Shown here: piece after piece, positions 6,249-15,473 of the stretch
Numbering within the stretch: position 1 is the first letter of the stretch
Layout: each line of letters opens with the position of its first letter
Made by a program: the position numbers and the translations under genes
Source: an uncultured Faecalibacterium sp.
Lineage (GTDB): Bacteria > Bacillota > Clostridia > Oscillospirales > Ruminococcaceae
NCBI GenBank assembly: GCA_934525405.1
Contig: CAKSZF010000023.1
Location: 1 to 18,052 of the forward strand
Direction of reading: 5' to 3'
Length of the DNA: 18,052 bases
Notes under the pieces: model-generated
The model's database searches: none
Told to the model about the DNA's origin: nothing
Seen by the model: only the letters and a program-made list of their open reading frames with translations

Positions 6249-7325
6249 ATGAAACGCAAATGGAGCCTGCGCCTTGGTGCAGCCGTGCTGTGCGCGGTGC
6301 TGCTGGGCAGCTGCGGGAGCACCGCCGCTGCGCCCGCAGAAAGCACCACCCCGGCAGACCCGCTTACCGGGCAGCAGCTGCTGTACCCGGAGCAGCGGGC
6401 AGCTGCGGTGGTCATTGAGAACACCACCGACAGTACCACCCAGTGGGGCGTCGGCAGCGCCTCGGTGGTGCTGGAAGCCCTGACCGAGAGCGGCAGCTCC
6501 ACCGAGCTGTGTCTGGTATACCCCGCCCTTGAGGCCATGCCCATCGTAGGGCCGGTGACGCGCGGGCAGGACTTATACTGGCGGCTGCTCAGCGGGCAGC
6601 AGGTGCTGCCCATCCAGTGCGGCAGCAGCGCTTACGCCAAGCGGTATCTGGAATATTATAACCTCCGCGCGGTGGACGCGCAGGAGGTGGGACGCAACGC
6701 CTTTGTCAGCACCGGCTACAGCTGGAACAGCGCGCCTTTGTGGCGCACCAGCGGCAAGGCGGTCGCCTCGGTGCTGGACAGCCTGAGCATCTCTGCCGCT
6801 GTGAACCAGAGCGCCTCCGGCAGCGAGAGCGAAACGGCAGGCGGTCTGCCCGCCCTACTGCCCCAGCGGGATACCGGGTATCTGCCGGACGCAAACGCCG
6901 CAGATGCAGTAAACGTGACCGTAAATTTTCAGTCCGGCGGTGCCACCGGCTTTGTCTATAATGACACCCTTGCCGCCTACGGGATGCAGCACGCGGACGG
7001 CACCCCCCAGCTGGACGCCAACACCGGCACACAGGCTGCCTTTGACAACCTGCTCATCCTGTACAGCGGCTCCTCTCTGCGGGACGATGGCCGCACGCTG
7101 GACTACGACCTTTCCATGGGCGGCGGCGTCTGGCTGAACGGCGGGCACCTGTGGCAAATCACATGGACGCAGGGCACCCAGAGCACCCTTGCCCTCTACG
7201 ATTCCAACGGCAAGCCGCTGGATCTCCCGGCAGGGCGCAGCTACATCGCCCTGCTCTCCAGCCTTACCGGGCAGGAGCTGCTGGTGCAAAACAGCACCGG
7301 CGAGGCGCTGGTGGGCGCCGGTTGA
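6249..7325 (+). CDS. Diverged DUF3048 paralogue, lipoprotein
   Basis: A 358-residue Sec-type lipoprotein (MKRKW start, LLGSC lipobox, Cys22), 12 bases after the previous stop and preceded by GGGGAGAAG, so the two form an operon. It aligns along its length with the upstream DUF3048 protein: ADPLTGQQ, a VGPVTRGQDLYWRLL block, FDNLLILYSG and a GRSYIALL end. The most conserved DUF3048 residues are changed: EGGISRF becomes ESGSSTEL, and VGPLRSGRD becomes VGPVTRGQD. This suggests a tandem duplication in which the second copy lost the ancestral activity or binding site while keeping the fold. A structural or partner role for the first protein is possible but unproven. Confidence 0.8.
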   Translation: MKRKWSLRLGAAVLCAVLLGSCGSTAAAPAESTTPADPLTGQQLLYPEQRAAAVVIENTTDSTTQWGVGSASVVLEALTESGSSTELCLVYPALEAMPIVGPVTRGQDLYWRLLSGQQVLPIQCGSSAYAKRYLEYYNLRAVDAQEVGRNAFVSTGYSWNSAPLWRTSGKAVASVLDSLSISAAVNQSASGSESETAGGLPALLPQRDTGYLPDANAADAVNVTVNFQSGGATGFVYNDTLAAYGMQHADGTPQLDANTGTQAAFDNLLILYSGSSLRDDGRTLDYDLSMGGGVWLNGGHLWQITWTQGTQSTLALYDSNGKPLDLPAGRSYIALLSSLTGQELLVQNSTGEALVGAG

Positions 7326-7340
7326 TCTCCGGCAGAAGTG

Positions 7341-7648
7341 CCCTCTCAGGCGCTCCCGGAGGGAGAGCCAAGGTCTAAGGCGTGTTGCTAAAGTATTGGG
7401 TTCAATGAGAAAGCTTCCGGCAGTGCACTTGGCTCTCCCTTTGGGAGAGCTGTCACCGCAGGTGACTGAGAGGGCGCACGCCGAAAGAAACTCCCCCAGT
7501 CATCTCGCTGCGCTCGATGCCAGCCCCCTCGGAGATGGGGCCTTTGGCATAGCGGTAAAGTTTCCGGCTAAAGCGCAAAGCTTGCGGGCGCGCCAGAGGC
7601 TCCCTCCCCGAGGGAGCTGGCAAAACCGTCAGGTTTTGACTGAGGGAG
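7341..7648. repeat. Cluster of four two-hairpin intergenic repeats (REP/MITE-like)
   Basis: Four related units in alternating orientation fill the 7326-7675 gap: A (7341-7373, minus, internally shortened), B (7429-7474, plus), C (7491-7548, minus) and D (7596-7648, plus). The plan is GGCTCTCCC..GGGAGAGC, a second small hairpin, then TGACTGAGAGGG. Stem sequences differ between units but pairing is kept: the second hairpin is GTCACC/GGTGAC in B, AAAACC/GGTTTT in D, and an ATCGAG/CGAGAT pair in C. There is no transposase nearby and no gene in the interval. Confidence 0.75.
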
Positions 7649-7724: not shown

Positions 7725-8330
7725 TTACAGGTCCACCACGCTGCCGACCTCGGCGGGGGTGGTGGGCACGGGGCCCAGAGCGGCTTCATCGGCATCGCGG
7801 CGCACCGTAAAGATGGCGCTGCGCCCGGCAGCAAAGTCCGGGTGCCAGGTCAGCGCAAGGGTCTGCCAGTCCTTCGGCACGGCGCAGAAGCAGTGCAGCA
7901 GCGCCCCGCGTCCGGCGGCAAGGTTCAGGGTGAACACCGAGGCATCCGCCGCGTTCTCGCTGTACAGCGGGGCGGCAAAGCTGCCGCAGGGCACACTCTG
8001 ACCGTTGCAGGCAGCGGTCACGCCGGTGCCCATGCTATACAGCTGCTCCCGGGTGCGCAGTCCCCGGCTTTGCAGATAGCTGGTATCCACCGGCAGGCTG
8101 GCTGCTGAAAGGTTTTCCACCGAGAGGTACACCAGCACACCGCCCAGCTCCGATGCCGGGGCATAGCCCAGCAGCTCTACGGCAGCTTTGCCGTCCAGCA
8201 GGGCAGGCTCGCCCGCAAGACACGGCTGCTGCGCCGCAGCACAGACCCCGGTAAGCAGCGCAGCAGCAAGGCTGACCGCACCGGAACCGGCACATTTCAG
8301 GAATGACCGGCGGGAGATGGATTGGGACAT
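7725..8330 (-). CDS. Small Tat-signal exported protein, lipobox not canonical
   Basis: I do not recognise a named family for this 201-residue protein. It begins MSQSISRRSFLK, an excellent twin-arginine motif. After the hydrophobic stretch comes LLTGVC, where Val at -1 breaks the usual Gly/Ala/Ser rule, followed by AAAQQ, so it may be released by signal peptidase I instead of lipid-anchored. The mature part is related to the protein at 10937-11554: TAACNGQ against TAVCDGQ, and VPKDWQTLALTWHPDF against VPKDWKQLKVTYVPTF. Alternating hydrophobic strands suggest a beta-sandwich of the DUF4352 sort; that is inference. The start is ATG 8330, following AGGAGG; the upstream in-frame ATG lies within the promoter-leader. 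Confidence 0.75.
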   Translation of the reverse strand: MSQSISRRSFLKCAGSGAVSLAAALLTGVCAAAQQPCLAGEPALLDGKAAVELLGYAPASELGGVLVYLSVENLSAASLPVDTSYLQSRGLRTREQLYSMGTGVTAACNGQSVPCGSFAAPLYSENAADASVFTLNLAAGRGALLHCFCAVPKDWQTLALTWHPDFAAGRSAIFTVRRDADEAALGPVPTTPAEVGSVVDL

Positions 8331-8372
8331 GACAGCGTTCCTCCTGTATACGATACAATACACTACCCTTTA

Positions 8373-8401
8373 ACAATAAAGGATTCTGCGCGTTCTGTCA
8401 A
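8373..8401 (-). promoter_or_regulatory. Promoter of the Tat-signal gene at 7725-8330
   Basis: On the minus strand: TTGACA (8401-8396), a 17-base spacer and TATTGT (8378-8373). The same pair of hexamers and spacing drives the Tat-lipoprotein gene at 11725. Confidence 0.8.
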
Positions 8402-8428
8402 GGGGCAGCGGGAAACTGTAACCCTTTC

Positions 8429-9103
8429 TTATTCGTAAGCTTCGTTCTCCTCGGCCTCGGCCTGCCCCTGCAGGGTGTCGGCGTAGCCAAAGGGTACGAT
8501 GTCGATGGCCTCCACCAGTTTGTCCCGCATCCACAGCTGCACATCGGTCTGCACGGTGTAGCCGCAGCCCGGGTCTGCCATCCACTGCTCGGGGTGGCGG
8601 GTGGGTACGGCGCGCTGGCTGAGCATACTCATGATCACGCCGCCGTGGGTCACGCAGGCGGCCTCGGTAACGTCCATACGGATCATGTACTCAAACAGCT
8701 TCATCAGGCTGTCGGCACAGCGGGCGTGGAACTGCTCGGTGGGCTCTGCGCCCTCCGGCAGATAGCCGGAGCCCGGGGTGATCCACTTTTTAAAGTCCTC
8801 GTCTCGCACGAGCTCCTTCACCGGGCGACCCTCAAACTTGCCAAAACCGGCCTCCCGCAAATCGTGCACCGTAAACTGGTGAGCAGCTCCGGGGAACAGG
8901 ATGTTGGCGGTCTCCACCGCACGCAGCAGCGGGGAGGAAAAAACGGTGTCTACCTGCGGGTAGGTAAACCGCTCTTTCAGGTCTGCCAGCTGGGCGCGGC
9001 CCTCGTCGCACAGAGGCAGGTCGGTGCCGCTGCCGATGTACAGACCCTGCAAATTGCCCGCCGTCATACCGTGGCGGATGAGATGAAGCTTGAAGGTTTT
9101 CAT
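8429..9103 (-). CDS. Histidine phosphatase family protein (phosphoglycerate-mutase-like)
   Basis: A 224-residue cytosolic enzyme of the histidine phosphatase superfamily. The phosphorylated His11 is in LIRHGMT; R61 in SSPLLRAVETA, E84 in LREAGFGKFEG and H153 in CVTHGGV complete the active-site set. This branch includes alpha-ribazole phosphatases, small-molecule phosphatases and cofactor-dependent mutases; the substrate cannot be assigned from this sequence, and there are no cobalamin genes nearby to favour CobC. The start is ATG 9103, preceded by AAGAGGTG. It lies 38 bases downstream of the LRR lipoprotein gene and is probably co-transcribed with it. No obvious terminator follows before the next promoter. 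Confidence 0.88.
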   Translation of the reverse strand: MKTFKLHLIRHGMTAGNLQGLYIGSGTDLPLCDEGRAQLADLKERFTYPQVDTVFSSPLLRAVETANILFPGAAHQFTVHDLREAGFGKFEGRPVKELVRDEDFKKWITPGSGYLPEGAEPTEQFHARCADSLMKLFEYMIRMDVTEAACVTHGGVIMSMLSQRAVPTRHPEQWMADPGCGYTVQTDVQLWMRDKLVEAIDIVPFGYADTLQGQAEAEENEAYE

Positions 9104-10936: not shown

Positions 10937-11554
10937 ATGTCTACTGTCATTTCCCGCCGCAGCTTCCTCAAGTGCACTGGCGCATCTGCTGCGGCACTGG
11001 GTGCAGTCGGCCTGCTGGGCGGCTGCCAGTCCAACGGCGACGACACTGTAGTGGAGGTCAAGGTCGGTGATACCGTCCGCAACTGGAACGGCTTGGGCGT
11101 GCAGCTGACCAGCGTGTTCCACCTGACGCAGGACCCCGTGCAGCCGGCAGGCTACGAGTATCTGGGCGTGCGGGTGACCACCGTCAACCGCAGCAAGACC
11201 GAGAGCTACGCCATCGGCGCACAGGGCGTTGACGCCATCAACGAGGCTTACCCTGTGCCCCCGCTGGAGAACGTGGACGCAAACTTTCAGGCTATGGCTG
11301 CTGCTACCCCGGATTTTACCGCCGTCTGTGATGGTCAGCCTGCAGCCTGCTGCGCCAATATCTCGCTGTACAACGCCAATTCCCAGAGCTTTTCCGATGT
11401 GGAGAGCCTGCCCCCGCAGGGCAGCGCCTACATTGTGCTGATGCTCATGGTGCCTAAGGACTGGAAACAGCTGAAGGTCACCTATGTGCCCACCTTCCTG
11501 GAGGGCAAGAGCCTGACTTTTGTCATGAACGCTTCCGATGTGATCCGCAGCTGA
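10937..11554 (+). CDS. Small Tat-signal lipoprotein, unknown function (copy 1)
   Basis: A 205-residue protein starting MSTVISRRSFLK, with lipobox LLGGC and Cys30, thus a predicted Tat-exported lipoprotein. The mature region opens with VVEVKVGDTVRNWNGLGVQL and YEYLGVRVTTVNRS, the layout of DUF4352-type immunoglobulin-like domains, in which a strand-rich fold is carried near the membrane. It shares the TAVCDGQPA and VPKDWKQLKVTYVPTF segments with the protein at 7725-8330, so the two are paralogues. No metal- or cofactor-binding motif is visible, so the reason for Tat rather than Sec export is not clear. The start is ATG 10937, after AAGGAGG at 10919-10925. Confidence 0.8.
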   Translation: MSTVISRRSFLKCTGASAAALGAVGLLGGCQSNGDDTVVEVKVGDTVRNWNGLGVQLTSVFHLTQDPVQPAGYEYLGVRVTTVNRSKTESYAIGAQGVDAINEAYPVPPLENVDANFQAMAAATPDFTAVCDGQPAACCANISLYNANSQSFSDVESLPPQGSAYIVLMLMVPKDWKQLKVTYVPTFLEGKSLTFVMNASDVIRS

Positions 11555-11639
11555 CAGAATCACCAGAAAAATCGCTTGAACTTCGTCTAAAATGCACGAT
11601 GCTGCCACAAAAAATTCACATTTGTTTTGCGGAAAATTA

Positions 11640-11668
11640 TTGACATTTTTCCTCGTTTCGCCTATTGT
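11640..11668 (+). promoter_or_regulatory. Promoter of the Tat-lipoprotein pair
   Basis: TTGACA (11640-11645), a 17-base spacer and TATTGT (11663-11668), followed by a GGTAG shortly after the -10. Hexamers, spacing and the GGTAG match the promoter of the gene at 7725-8330. Confidence 0.8.
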
Positions 11669-11724
11669 ATAGGTAGTGCCTTATGGCAGAATCTGTATTG
11701 ATGTGTCCCAAAGGAGGAACGAAT

Positions 11725-12219
11725 ATGACTGGGGAATTTTCCCGCCGCTCTTTCCTGAAATATACCGCCCTCACCGCTGTGGCTGTAGCTGGCAGCAGTC
11801 TGCTGACCGGCTGCTCCGGGTATGCCCCGGTGCAGCATGCTCCCGGTACCAGCAACACGGTGCTGAAGGTGGTTTCCACGCTGGAACGGGTAGAATACGA
11901 TGAAGATACCAACACCACATTGTTCCGGCTGGTAGTGACCAACGGCCGTGTTAATGCACTGGACGTGACCAAGGCAAATTTTGCCGTGAAGGCAGACAGA
12001 TATCTGGCCTACCAGAACAGTAAGCTGGAGGTGACCAGCCCGGATGCACTGAGCCATCAGGTCAAGAAGGGCGAGACCGTTACCTACAATGTATTGGCAA
12101 AGGGACTGAACGCGCTGACCGACGGCCCTGTGACCCTTACCTTCTATCCCGATCTGGAGTACAGCGAATTCAACGCCAACTGGGAGCTGGACGCAGACGC
12201 ATTGAAGTCTACGACCTGA
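11725..12219 (+). CDS. Small Tat-signal lipoprotein, unknown function (copy 2)
   Basis: A 164-residue protein starting MTGEFSRRSFLK, with lipobox LLTGC and Cys30. After a short Ser/Pro-rich tether, the mature domain alternates hydrophobic strands (VLKVVSTLERVEYD, TLFRLVVTNGRVNALDV, GPVTLTFYPDLEYSEF). It looks like a single beta-sandwich and ends with SEFNANWELD, which resembles SEYSMTWEIT in the next gene. I cannot assign a function. The start is ATG 11725, seven bases after AAAGGAGG; two in-frame ATGs upstream have no ribosome site and would bury the signal peptide. It is followed 35 bases later by copy 3. Confidence 0.8.
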   Translation: MTGEFSRRSFLKYTALTAVAVAGSSLLTGCSGYAPVQHAPGTSNTVLKVVSTLERVEYDEDTNTTLFRLVVTNGRVNALDVTKANFAVKADRYLAYQNSKLEVTSPDALSHQVKKGETVTYNVLAKGLNALTDGPVTLTFYPDLEYSEFNANWELDADALKSTT

Positions 12220-12254
12220 ACCCCAACATTCTGGTAAAAACGGAGGAATAAGCC

Positions 12255-12794
12255 ATGTCTTATACATTTTCCCGCCGCGCATTCCTGAAGTATTCGGCAG
12301 CCACCGCAGTGGCTGTGGCCGGTGCCAGTCTGCTGGGCGGCTGTGAGTATCAGGACCCCAAAAACCCGGTGAGCAAAGAGCTGCCCAGTGCAATCACCAG
12401 CGATATGCAGGTTATTGCCGGTCTGAGAAGCATGAAGATCGAGGGCGGTGTCTGCACTTTGGAGGTAGATATCGAGTCTGTCCGTGCAAACCCCATCCCG
12501 CTCGATCCCTACCGCTTCTCTCTTGCCGTCAAGGACGTTGAGGACAAGCAGGTCTACTTCAGCGATAACTGGGGCGGCGTGCGCATTCTGGACGCCGAGA
12601 ACAGCCTGATCCAGCAGAAGAAACCTGTAACGCTCCATCTGGCCGCATCCAGCTTCCCCGAGCTGCAGGATGGCTACACTGTGGTGTTCAGGTACATCCC
12701 CATCCGCGAGAACTCCGAGTATTCTATGACTTGGGAGATCACCAAGGAAGTGTACGACAAGTTCATCGCAAACCAGGGTACCAGCAAAGAATGA
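12255..12794 (+). CDS. Small Tat-signal lipoprotein, unknown function (copy 3)
   Basis: A 179-residue protein starting MSYTFSRRAFLK, with lipobox LLGGC and Cys30. Residues 1-30 are nearly identical to copy 2, including the AVAVAG core, which indicates recent duplication of the signal region. The mature domain is beta-strand-rich (GVCTLEVDIESVRANPIPL, YRFSLAVKDVE, YTVVFRYIP) and ends in the shared SEYSMTWEIT element. It has a GGAGG site, ATG 12255, and lies in an operon with copy 2, closed by a strong terminator. No function is assigned; a surface accessory or binding role is a guess. Confidence 0.8.
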   Translation: MSYTFSRRAFLKYSAATAVAVAGASLLGGCEYQDPKNPVSKELPSAITSDMQVIAGLRSMKIEGGVCTLEVDIESVRANPIPLDPYRFSLAVKDVEDKQVYFSDNWGGVRILDAENSLIQQKKPVTLHLAASSFPELQDGYTVVFRYIPIRENSEYSMTWEITKEVYDKFIANQGTSKE

Positions 12795-12979: not shown

Positions 12980-13070
12980 GGAGATGTATCGAAGCGGTCG
13001 TAACGAGAACGACTCGAAATCGTTTTGTCCTTAACCGGGCACGTGGGTTCGAATCCCACCATCTCCGCCA
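12980..13070 (+). tRNA. tRNA-Ser (anticodon CGA)
   Basis: The acceptor GGAGATG (12980-12986) pairs with CATCTCC, followed by G and an encoded CCA (13068-13070). The anticodon arm is AACGA-CTCGAAA-TCGTT, giving anticodon CGA, which reads UCG. The long variable arm (class II) and the T arm GTGGG-TTCGAAT-CCCAC are typical of serine tRNA. It has its own promoter and terminator. Its 3' end borders the remnants of an integrative element, so it may have been the attachment site. Confidence 0.95.
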
Positions 13071-13229: not shown

Positions 13230-13589
13230 TTACAATAGGTTGAAAGCTTGGAACGTAGCTGCTTCTCCTTTTGCACTCTCCGTCAAAGCATGGGGTTCTT
13301 CGGCACTGTAATAGCTGCCTTTGAAACCATTCTTTTTCGGACGCTCGACCTTATCTGCCGGATTGGTGGGGATCAGGTCGATCTTCGCCGCATAGATGAT
13401 ATACACCCGCCCCTGCTCGTCCAGCCAGCCGTTCTTTGCAGACAGGCTCATGCGGTCCAGCAGGATACCGTATAGCGTCCGGGCATCGGTGGAGAGCTGC
13501 CGGAAGCGGTGGTCTTGGAACAGTGCCTTGGGGATGCAGAAATAGGAGAACAATTCGCCCGACTGACCATAGAAGTAGTCCAGCATCAT
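13230..13589 (-). pseudogene. Chimeric remnant: RepA N-terminus fused to a tyrosine integrase fragment
   Basis: From ATG 13589 (or 13586) the first 65 or so residues match the N-terminus of replication initiator A proteins of conjugative elements: LDYFYGQSGELFSYF, then FRQLSTDARTLYGILLDRMSLS and KNGWLDEQGRVYIIY. Near 13390 the frame passes straight into KIDLIPTNPADKVERPKK and GFKGSYYSAEE, which is the linker between the core-binding and catalytic domains of phage-type tyrosine integrases. After ALTESAKG the match ends and a stop follows. Neither part is complete: RepA lacks its DNA-binding remainder and the integrase lacks all its catalytic residues. The in-frame join is best explained by deletion inside an element. 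The frame is also open upstream to 13682, but without a ribosome site. Confidence 0.7.
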
Positions 13590-13671
13590 TTGGTGTGACC
13601 TCGGATTTTCAACTGTATGGGTGTGTTCATGTGGAAAACTATCCCTCCCTCCGAAATGAATGAAAAACAGG

Positions 13672-13706
13672 TTGACATTCACCAGAAAAAACGCTTACAT
13701 TGGTGA
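13672..13706 (+). promoter_or_regulatory. Promoter with overlapping palindrome, DUF4869-ATPase operon
   Basis: TTGACA (13672-13677), an 18-base spacer and TACATT (13696-13701). TCACCA (13679-13684) and TGGTGA (13701-13706) form an inverted repeat that spans the spacer and touches the -10, a natural place for a repressor. No regulator gene lies inside the cassette. Confidence 0.6.
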
Positions 13707-13747
13707 TAATAAAAGTGTCAACCGATGTAACAGGAGAAGATGCTTAT

Positions 13748-14185
13748 ATGCTCAATGTTTTTTACGGTGATATGCCGAACGTGATTTATAATACCGCTGT
13801 TTATTTTAAGAACACTTATGCAGAGGAGTGGATCACAGCTCCGCTTACTCGTGAGATGATACAAGATGTAGACCATTCCACTGTACTGGACAGCGGTGTG
13901 ATTGATAGTCCGGTGCTGGGGAAGATTCCCCCGGTGCAGTTGTCGGGCGGAGTAAAGACCCTGATTTTGATAGCCAACGAGCCGGAAAAGGTGTTCAACG
14001 CTTCGACCTGTGGAGATAACTGTGCCAAATGGCTGTTAAAAATCGCTGAAAATCGGGATGTTACCATCAACCTTCGGCATCTCATGGATTTTGGAAATGG
14101 AACATTTACCATCCGCATCCTGAACACCAATCAGATCGTTCACTCCATGCGGGAACTTGTCCCCGTTGCAGGACTTTATGTGTGA
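13748..14185 (+). CDS. DUF4869 domain-containing protein
   Basis: A 145-residue cytosolic protein covering a full DUF4869 domain: it opens MLNVFYGDMPNVIYNT and contains YFKNTYAEEWIT, VLDSGVIDSPVLGKIPP, LSGGVKTLILIA, FNASTCGDNCAKWLLKIAE and TINLRHLMDFG. The biochemical function of DUF4869 is, to my knowledge, unknown. The two cysteines in STCGDNC are part of the conserved block. The start is ATG 13748, after AGGAGA at 13732-13737; the earlier in-frame ATG lies inside the promoter. The gene ends 9 bases before the ATPase start, and the TGAGG at its stop doubles as the ribosome site of the next gene, so the two are translationally coupled. Confidence 0.88.
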   Translation: MLNVFYGDMPNVIYNTAVYFKNTYAEEWITAPLTREMIQDVDHSTVLDSGVIDSPVLGKIPPVQLSGGVKTLILIANEPEKVFNASTCGDNCAKWLLKIAENRDVTINLRHLMDFGNGTFTIRILNTNQIVHSMRELVPVAGLYV

Positions 14186-14194
14186 GGATTATTT

Positions 14195-15172
14195 ATGACA
14201 GGAGCATATCGGGTCGTTGTACAAAACCGAAAAATCAAGTTCGATTTTGAAATACGCCGGAACATCACGATCTTGCGTGGAGATAGTGCCACAGGAAAAA
14301 CAACGCTCGTGGAGATGATTCGGGAATACGAGGAACTAGGCCCAGACAGTGGAATAGAACTGCAATGCGAGAAGGATTGCGTTGTTCTTTCCGGGCGGCA
14401 GTGGGAAAAACAGCTTTCCGACCTTTCGCAGAGTATCGTTTTTATTGATGAAGGGAATGCTTTTACTGCTTCAAAGGAATTTGCCGCAGCGATTCAGAAA
14501 ACAGACAACTACTATGTGCTCGTCACGCGGGAAGGACTTGAAACATTACCGTACAGCGTAACGGAAATTTACGGAATCCGGGCATCCAAACACTTCGGAG
14601 ACTTGAAACAGACCTACAATGAGTTTTTCCGAATTTACGGAAAGCCGATGGGGTTGGAGAAACTAAAACCAGCGGCAATCATTACAGAGGATTCCAATTC
14701 GGGGCTCCAGTTTTTTCAGGCTGTTTGCGCCGAAAACGGAATTTTCTGCGAATCTGCTGGTGGGAAGTCCAACATTTTCAAAATGCTGTCCGACCGTGCA
14801 GGGGAGAATGTTCTGGTGGTTGCAGACGGTGCGGCGTTTGGTTCGCAGATGGAGCGCATTATGCAACTGCTCGCCCTCCAGCCGGATTCTCATATTTACC
14901 TGCCAGAATCGTTTGAATGGTTGATTCTTCGTTCTGGATTGCTCGAAGACGCGGAGGTCGATGAAATTCTGAAATCGCCGGAAAATCATGTGGAAAGCCA
15001 GCAGTATTTCAGTTGGGAGCGCTATTTTACGGCTGTGCTGATGCAAAAGACCGCTGACAGCTATCTGAAATATACGAAGTCAAAACTGAATCCTGTGTAT
15101 TTACAGGAGCATGAAAAGAAAGCGATTCTTTCGGAAATGTCCCACATCCAGCTCGACAAGAAAGACAGATAA
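14195..15172 (+). CDS. Compact P-loop ATPase with TOPRIM-like C-terminal half
   Basis: A 325-residue protein. Walker A is GDSATGKTT (29-37) and Walker B is IVFIDE (81-86), with a strand VLVTRE (108-113) in sensor position. The ATPase core is short, about 155 residues. The second half starts KPAAIITEDSNSG (E165, D166), then AGGKSNIFKML (188-198) and VLVVADGAAFG (206-216). This order of an acidic motif, a Gly-Gly-Lys-Ser turn and a strand ending in Asp resembles TOPRIM or DUF4435-type domains fused to ATPases in OLD-like nucleases, but the usual DxD is replaced by ADGAAFG. The fold call is therefore tentative. It is co-transcribed with DUF4869 and followed by a terminator. Position in an element scar suggests a defence or maintenance role; that is inference. 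Confidence 0.75.
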   Translation: MTGAYRVVVQNRKIKFDFEIRRNITILRGDSATGKTTLVEMIREYEELGPDSGIELQCEKDCVVLSGRQWEKQLSDLSQSIVFIDEGNAFTASKEFAAAIQKTDNYYVLVTREGLETLPYSVTEIYGIRASKHFGDLKQTYNEFFRIYGKPMGLEKLKPAAIITEDSNSGLQFFQAVCAENGIFCESAGGKSNIFKMLSDRAGENVLVVADGAAFGSQMERIMQLLALQPDSHIYLPESFEWLILRSGLLEDAEVDEILKSPENHVESQQYFSWERYFTAVLMQKTADSYLKYTKSKLNPVYLQEHEKKAILSEMSHIQLDKKDR

Positions 15173-15186
15173 ATCCCTACTAAGCA

Positions 15187-15236
15187 AACAGGACTGCTTC
15201 ACACACATTGCACTGTGGAGCAGTCCTGTTCGTTTA
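15187..15236 (+). terminator. Terminator after the ATPase gene
   Basis: AACAGGACTGCT (15187-15198) pairs with AGCAGTCCTGTT (15219-15230); CACA/TGTG extends the stem inward. Only a short T-run (CGTTT) follows. Confidence 0.7.
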
Positions 15237-15473
15237 ATATGTAATTGTCATTGCACCTTCATGGCAGTCCTGTGCATAGGTGCGGAGCAGATCAAGGTGC
15301 TTTGAGGATTTTCGGACGATAGCCGTTGCACGGTCGCCGGACATAAACTCAACGACCGCAAGCCGTGGAATTGTCAGTGTGCCACGGATTTTGAAGCCCA
15401 CAAGAATCTTCTGATTGCACCATCGCTGGATGCTTTGTGCAGAGTAGTCACCATCCCCGCCAACAAAAAGCAC
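15234..15473 (-). pseudogene. 5'-truncated helix-turn-helix (excisionase/MerR-like) fragment
   Basis: The 79-codon frame contains SAQSIQRWCNQKILVGFKIR followed by GTLTIPRLAVVEFM. This is the second half of a helix-turn-helix domain of the kind found in small element-encoded DNA-binding proteins, with the recognition helix and wing present and the usual N-terminal helix missing. The only start is a GTG (15473) inside the terminator hairpin of the gene upstream, with no ribosome site. I therefore read it as a truncated remnant of the same mobile element rather than a working gene. A short functional protein is not excluded. Confidence 0.5.

Follow-up and report, generated by a model that had tools for sequence, protein, structure and literature searches.

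DUF4869 and a compact P-loop/TOPRIM-like protein: a co-inherited gene pair that may divide one ABC ATPase between two proteins

The operon and its two genes

The 18,052-nucleotide contig CAKSZF010000023.1 of an uncultured Faecalibacterium sp. (assembly GCA_934525405.1), referred to here over its whole length as the window, carries an intact operon of two genes on its forward strand. The first gene (13748-14185) encodes a 145-amino-acid protein of the DUF4869 family (PF16163, E about 3e-63 to 4e-63). The second (14195-15172) encodes a 325-amino-acid partner in which a half with Walker A and B motifs is followed by a TOPRIM-like half, the latter carrying the motifs IITED, SAGGKSN and VLVVADGAAFG in that order. 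An earlier sequence-only reading had described this arrangement, and its account of the two genes, the short ATPase core and the TOPRIM-like motif order holds. The start of DUF4869 is revised from TTG 13700, which opens a mechanically called frame of 161 amino acids, to ATG 13748. Most of 120 listed homologues are 145 amino acids long and begin at the residue coded by this ATG, and the TTG overlaps the -10 element of a suggested promoter (see below).

A Shine-Dalgarno-like AGGAGA read from the sequence (13732-13737) lies 10 nucleotides upstream of the DUF4869 ATG. The partner starts 9 nucleotides past the DUF4869 stop codon, and its own Shine-Dalgarno-like GAGG overlaps that stop, so translational coupling is plausible. 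Two related loci, L001 in Faecalibacterium longum and L061 in genome G004, permit a comparison with the window at close range. The DUF4869 gene differs among the three by 7-12 nucleotides and 0-1 amino acids, and the partner gene by 16-26 nucleotides and 6-7 amino acids. Because dN/dS is about 0-0.16 for both, the two genes look to be under purifying selection.

Motifs and predicted folds of the two proteins

In dimers of ATP-binding cassette (ABC) ATPases, each ATP is held between the Walker A and B motifs of one subunit and the signature motif of the other. The motifs of the gene pair are distributed in a complementary manner. Among 42 distinct pairs, a set limited to copies with at least about 110 matched positions in DUF4869 and about 100 in the partner's N-terminal half, the signature pattern LSGGxK (chosen post hoc) is present in 42/42 DUF4869 proteins and in none of the 42 partners, whereas Walker A is present in 41/42 partners and in none of the DUF4869 proteins. 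Walker B is likewise found in 41/42 partners.

The signature-like segment of the window's DUF4869 protein, LSGGVKTLIL (L65-L74, with S66, G68 and K70; 13940-13969), lies at the start of helix 67-77 in an AlphaFold model (predicted local distance difference test, pLDDT, 95.6). A signature at a helix N-terminus is a feature of the ABC ATPase superfamily. By their descriptions, ABC/SMC-type proteins make up 46 of the 50 Foldseek rows listed for this model and 46 of its 50 VIA rows, albeit with weak scores, and PtuA provides the best named structural rows. Sequence comparisons do not make this connection. None of 21 members matches an ABC family in Pfam at E 10 (one matches Toprim_2 at 0.16), and a sequence search of the PDB found no ABC link. 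Local hhalign comparisons with six OLD proteins give plausible registers at low probability (1% for DUF4869, 29-39% for the partner's N-terminal half and 0.7% for its C-terminal half); the global alignments of DUF4869 and of the C-terminal half are senseless, and these results are used as a hint only.

In the N-terminal half of the partner (residues 1-150), alignment of members places Walker A (GDSATGKT, residues 29-36; 14279-14302) about 50 residues from Walker B (IVFIDE, residues 81-86; 14435-14452), and the aligned members share no conserved signature between the two. Weak family matches place ABC-type ATPases first (ABC_tran 0.0067, AAA_23 0.0086, then AAA_14 0.012), and matches to LmuB, PbeC, PtuA and AriA appear in PADLOC at 0.0007-0.02. 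The registers of the weak matches begin at the N-terminus. Against the OLD proteins, hhalign reaches E 6e-4 locally and 5e-5 globally at the probabilities given above, and the PDB sequence search also returns a designed P-loop protein, RarA and guanylate kinases. In public sources, one homologue of the partner from Faecalibacterium prausnitzii (P0281) goes by the name 'translation initiation factor 2', probably a misannotation.

The C-terminal half (residues 155-325; 14657-15169) is probably a degenerate TOPRIM domain. This assignment draws on a confident model (pLDDT 90.4, predicted template-modelling score 0.87), on the longest structural alignments to OLD C-terminal regions (137-138 residues) and on the order of the E, G and D motifs (E165, G190/K191, D211-G-A-A-F-G, E238/E241). 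A viral RloB-like protein aligns over 169 columns and has the highest query-normalised template-modelling score (0.48) among 50 listed rows; the Foldseek comparison of this half with the PDB is uninformative by itself. The fold comparison with OLD structures proposed by the sequence-only reading, made here with single-protein models, leaves its TOPRIM assignment probable. That reading had also pointed to an altered DxD motif, and the second aspartate is indeed alanine in 17/17 aligned members; by our reading, the six OLD proteins keep D-x-D at the corresponding place. Nuclease catalysis by this half is uncertain because of the substitution.

Distribution, neighbours and host element

The pair is an accessory one, with multiple copies in some genomes. 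DUF4869 is present in 8/31 genomes of the genus, probably Faecalibacterium (up to 3 copies), in 10/197 genomes of a family sample (9 over the cut-off, up to 6 copies) and in 1/249 genomes of a phylum sample, where the single case is the centre genome itself; the same is true of the partner in the phylum sample. This patchiness is not that of core genes carried by every strain. Three metagenome-assembled genomes chosen because they hold a relative of the partner (G475, G476 and G477) have 10, 11 (15 including weak ones) and 4 DUF4869 matches, respectively. Searches of public proteins return thousands of homologues of each protein, with 7983 of the 7998 DUF4869 candidates scored passing E 1e-3.

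The sequence-only reading had proposed a survey of co-occurrence, and the genes do co-occur. In 40 regions fetched around DUF4869 matches, 39/43 DUF4869 copies adjoin a partner N-terminal half, a count that covers 9/10 matches of G475, 4/15 of G476 and 2/4 of G477 and includes near-duplicate regions such as L071 and L072. The exceptions are L064, L068, L070 and L077, and the first two copies in L081 have one N-terminal half between them. Three short loci (L032, L034 and L049) have DUF4869 copies with no partner match, on short contigs or with a weak match. DUF4869 is mostly the first gene but is second in L080, L094 and L095. Distances within the two families are correlated over the 42 distinct pairs (r 0.90, partly reflecting relatedness of hosts and of copies), and none of 2000 permutations reaches this value (highest 0.39).

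The pair is also modular. In L097 its TOPRIM-like module is a separate third gene, and partner forms with the N-terminal half only exist beside DUF4869. In three loci the partner gene breaks off close to the first TOPRIM motif (TEDSN...) or a little beyond it (L082 7334-7882, L083 8476-9000 and L087 8210-8785), which suggests a recombination spot. Two of the three lie near other candidate conflict genes (Fic with SMEK-TPR; BREX).

Phage carriage looks rare, and a phage origin for the pair was set aside. Viral scans, which rest on short patterns, found the partner at one locus and DUF4869 at three, with one contig common to both. Matches occur in 3/72,556 plasmid records and 5/50,697 phage records; the latter are all unannotated, and the four opened are 'UNVERIFIED' faecal scaffolds. 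Two viral contigs carry DUF4869 with no recognisable partner (L055 around 8001-8450; L057 at 6994-7428 and 8001-8441), and one of the L057 copies has a longer N-terminal extension. Such partnerless proteins could be decoys or anti-defence proteins.

The sequence-only reading raised the question of whether the pair lies in defence islands. Some copies are near defence genes, and many others have no such neighbour by eye. The L059 copy adjoins a Wadjet type I set (JetABCD, PADLOC) in a region that also holds type I-E Cas3, Cas8e and Cas11e. By eye, L063 and L069 have a Wadjet set of the same size, and L065 has the JetC and JetD of such a set; these four neighbourhoods are probably one ancestral association. 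The L061 and L066 copies have AbiL/RloB pairs at a distance of 2-4 kb. PtuA and PtuB come directly after DUF4869 in L064, in which a partner was not found, BrxL and PglZ follow the cut copy of L083, and AbiEi is close to the L077 copy, which has no partner. HipA_C-like genes are present near copies in L081 (6940-7785, E 3e-7) and L077 (8416-9504, 3e-5, below the curated cut-off). A GajB match in L086 was not counted, as it is a UvrD-type helicase of a generic family.

From 330 deduplicated neighbour open reading frames, 136 were taken (nearest first, those above 1300 amino acids omitted, limit of 50,000 residues). They match 112 PADLOC families at 1e-20, of which the 25 shown represent at most about eight gene types. 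The 120 control frames (132 chosen from 251 deduplicated, minus 12 touching region ends) match 5 families in 4 to 7 proteins. Statistical enrichment of defence genes is not claimed, because many PADLOC models per gene inflate the family counts. A defence role is plausible from the neighbourhoods. A BREX survey (PMC12839542) describes OLD-ABC ATPases that carry TOPRIM or other nucleases as recurrent accessories; the term DUF4869 is absent from its main text.

The surroundings of the window's pair point to a mobile element. Upstream, on the reverse strand, is a truncated RepA_N replication initiator (13230-13682, 150 amino acids; PF06970, E 6e-20) whose F. longum L001 counterpart, identified by eye, has 319 amino acids. 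A tRNA-Ser(CGA) gene (12980-13070) is a possible integration site. The L001 block matches window positions 13393-15447 at 97.6% and carries the longer RepA_N gene together with a ParA-like gene (both by eye), and L061 carries the same block at 96.7%. Since both loci share this block and about 100 nucleotides of the tRNA region near the pair, the window looks like what is left of an element linked to tRNA-Ser in Faecalibacterium or a near relative. The earlier description of the pair as lying between broken pieces of an element is borne out on its left side. To the right of the 3' hairpin, no more element pieces were identified, and the DUF188 and esterase genes there are chromosome-like, matching related genomes at 88-90%.

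The signals attributed to the operon are partly borne out. A promoter-like TTGACA-18-TACATT (13672-13701) agrees with the consensus at 10 of 12 positions, but shuffled sequence contains such sites just as often (2 found against 2.6 +/- 1.5 expected). The inverted repeat after the operon (15181-15236) forms a strong predicted hairpin (-32.4 kcal/mol, z -7.6) that no shuffle equals; it is missing from the terminator-scan list, but a terminator role is plausible. The hairpin (15180-15236) recurs in L061 (4151-4205, 86% over 57 nucleotides) near the start of an open reading frame resembling an IS110-type transposase by eye. Farther upstream, the products of three adjoining genes (10937-12794) are small and alike, and by eye their N-termini are twin-arginine-like (SRRxFLK); the one tested has a TAT_signal match below the cut-off.

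A possible shared ATP site and its alternatives

We consider it somewhat better than an even bet that the pair constitutes one ABC-TOPRIM machine resembling OLD and PARIS, with its ABC ATPase split over two proteins. DUF4869 would be an ABC lobe that has lost the P-loop but retains the LSGGxK signature where a helix begins, along with a residual H-loop. The partner would supply Walker A and B without a signature, plus the degenerate C-terminal TOPRIM. Pairing a lobe that has only the signature with one that has only the Walker motifs would produce an obligate heteromer with one composite ATP site, in which the partner would bind ATP and DUF4869 would close the site in trans. ATP binding or a phage-linked signal might then free or activate the TOPRIM half, which by analogy to OLD and PARIS would be the output of an abortive or nucleic-acid-directed response. 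The sequence-only reading had suggested an OLD-like ATPase-TOPRIM protein; its TOPRIM half is probable, and the proposed ABC lobe in DUF4869 is an unexpected addition.

Known systems share parts of this architecture. Like members of the OLD family (class 1 and 2 OLD, and GajA of Gabija), the partner links an ABC-type Walker A half to a C-terminal TOPRIM-like domain. However, its single chain has 325 amino acids compared to 526-731 for the six OLD proteins, and it contains neither a conserved signature, and hence no complete one-chain ABC ATPase, nor DxD; the signature lobe apparently resides in the second gene. PARIS (AriA and AriB) likewise combines an ABC ATPase with a TOPRIM effector, which the separate module of L097 recalls, but here the ATPase itself is divided and not only the effector. 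PADLOC matches AriA at E 0.018 over residues 13-115 only and gives no AriB row. Septu is linked to the pair by the PtuA structural matches and by the gene order of L064. In contrast, PtuA is a complete ABC ATPase, and the window pair has no HNH partner; neither protein has an HNH or PtuB match in family scans or PADLOC. The same scans yield no RloB or AbiL match, although RloB/AbiL ATPase-TOPRIM pairs resemble the system through the viral RloB-like alignment and the AbiL genes near two copies.

Some of the defence neighbourhoods point to turnover at shared spots and not to joint function. The copy linked to BREX (L083) has a cut C-terminal half, as do L082 and L087, and those linked to Septu (L064) and AbiEi (L077) are partnerless. 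An addiction module is an unlikely alternative. Here the ATPase-TOPRIM protein would be a toxin and DUF4869 an antidote or regulator unrelated to ABC ATPases, kept by addiction after decay of the element. Two small adjoining genes on a decayed, apparently tRNA-linked element, the occasional swap of gene order, the HipA_C-like neighbours in L081 and L077 and the solo viral copies of L055 and L057, which could be antidotes, would all suit such a module. It accounts poorly for two genomes that hold ten and eleven copies above the cut-off, or for copies among ordinary chromosomal genes in several genomes. Moreover, forms reduced to the N-terminal half would be missing the toxin half while still keeping DUF4869, and the resemblance of the DUF4869 model to ABC heads would go unexplained.

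It is also improbable that the pair is a regulatory or housekeeping ATPase of gut Clostridia with no defence role and with a TOPRIM-like half that serves as a ligand-binding or scaffold domain. The invariance of DGAAFG, which has no second aspartate, in the 17 aligned members is what such a domain might display, and the many copies away from defence genes and the chromosome-like surroundings in Agathobacter are compatible with this explanation. The patchy occurrence in genus, family and phylum samples and the turnover next to Septu and BREX are not readily reconciled with it.

If the split-ATPase arrangement is correct, the pair may be an ABC ATPase of a new kind, with a different gene encoding each side of its one ATP site. 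It would act as a portable two-gene switch with its TOPRIM in cis, in trans (L097) or absent, and would form a conflict system that is widespread among gut Clostridia and so far unrecorded. We hold this broader proposal at slightly less than an even chance. A literature search, thin on subscription papers and preprints, found no paper on DUF4869 or PF16163, and titles and abstract openings contained no matching description of split signature and Walker motifs in an anti-phage context. A testable function can now be proposed for DUF4869, a domain abundant in public sequence data. If true, the pair would add a compact relative to the OLD, PARIS and Septu defence ATPases and would provide a minimal natural test of ATP-site sharing in ABC ATPases.
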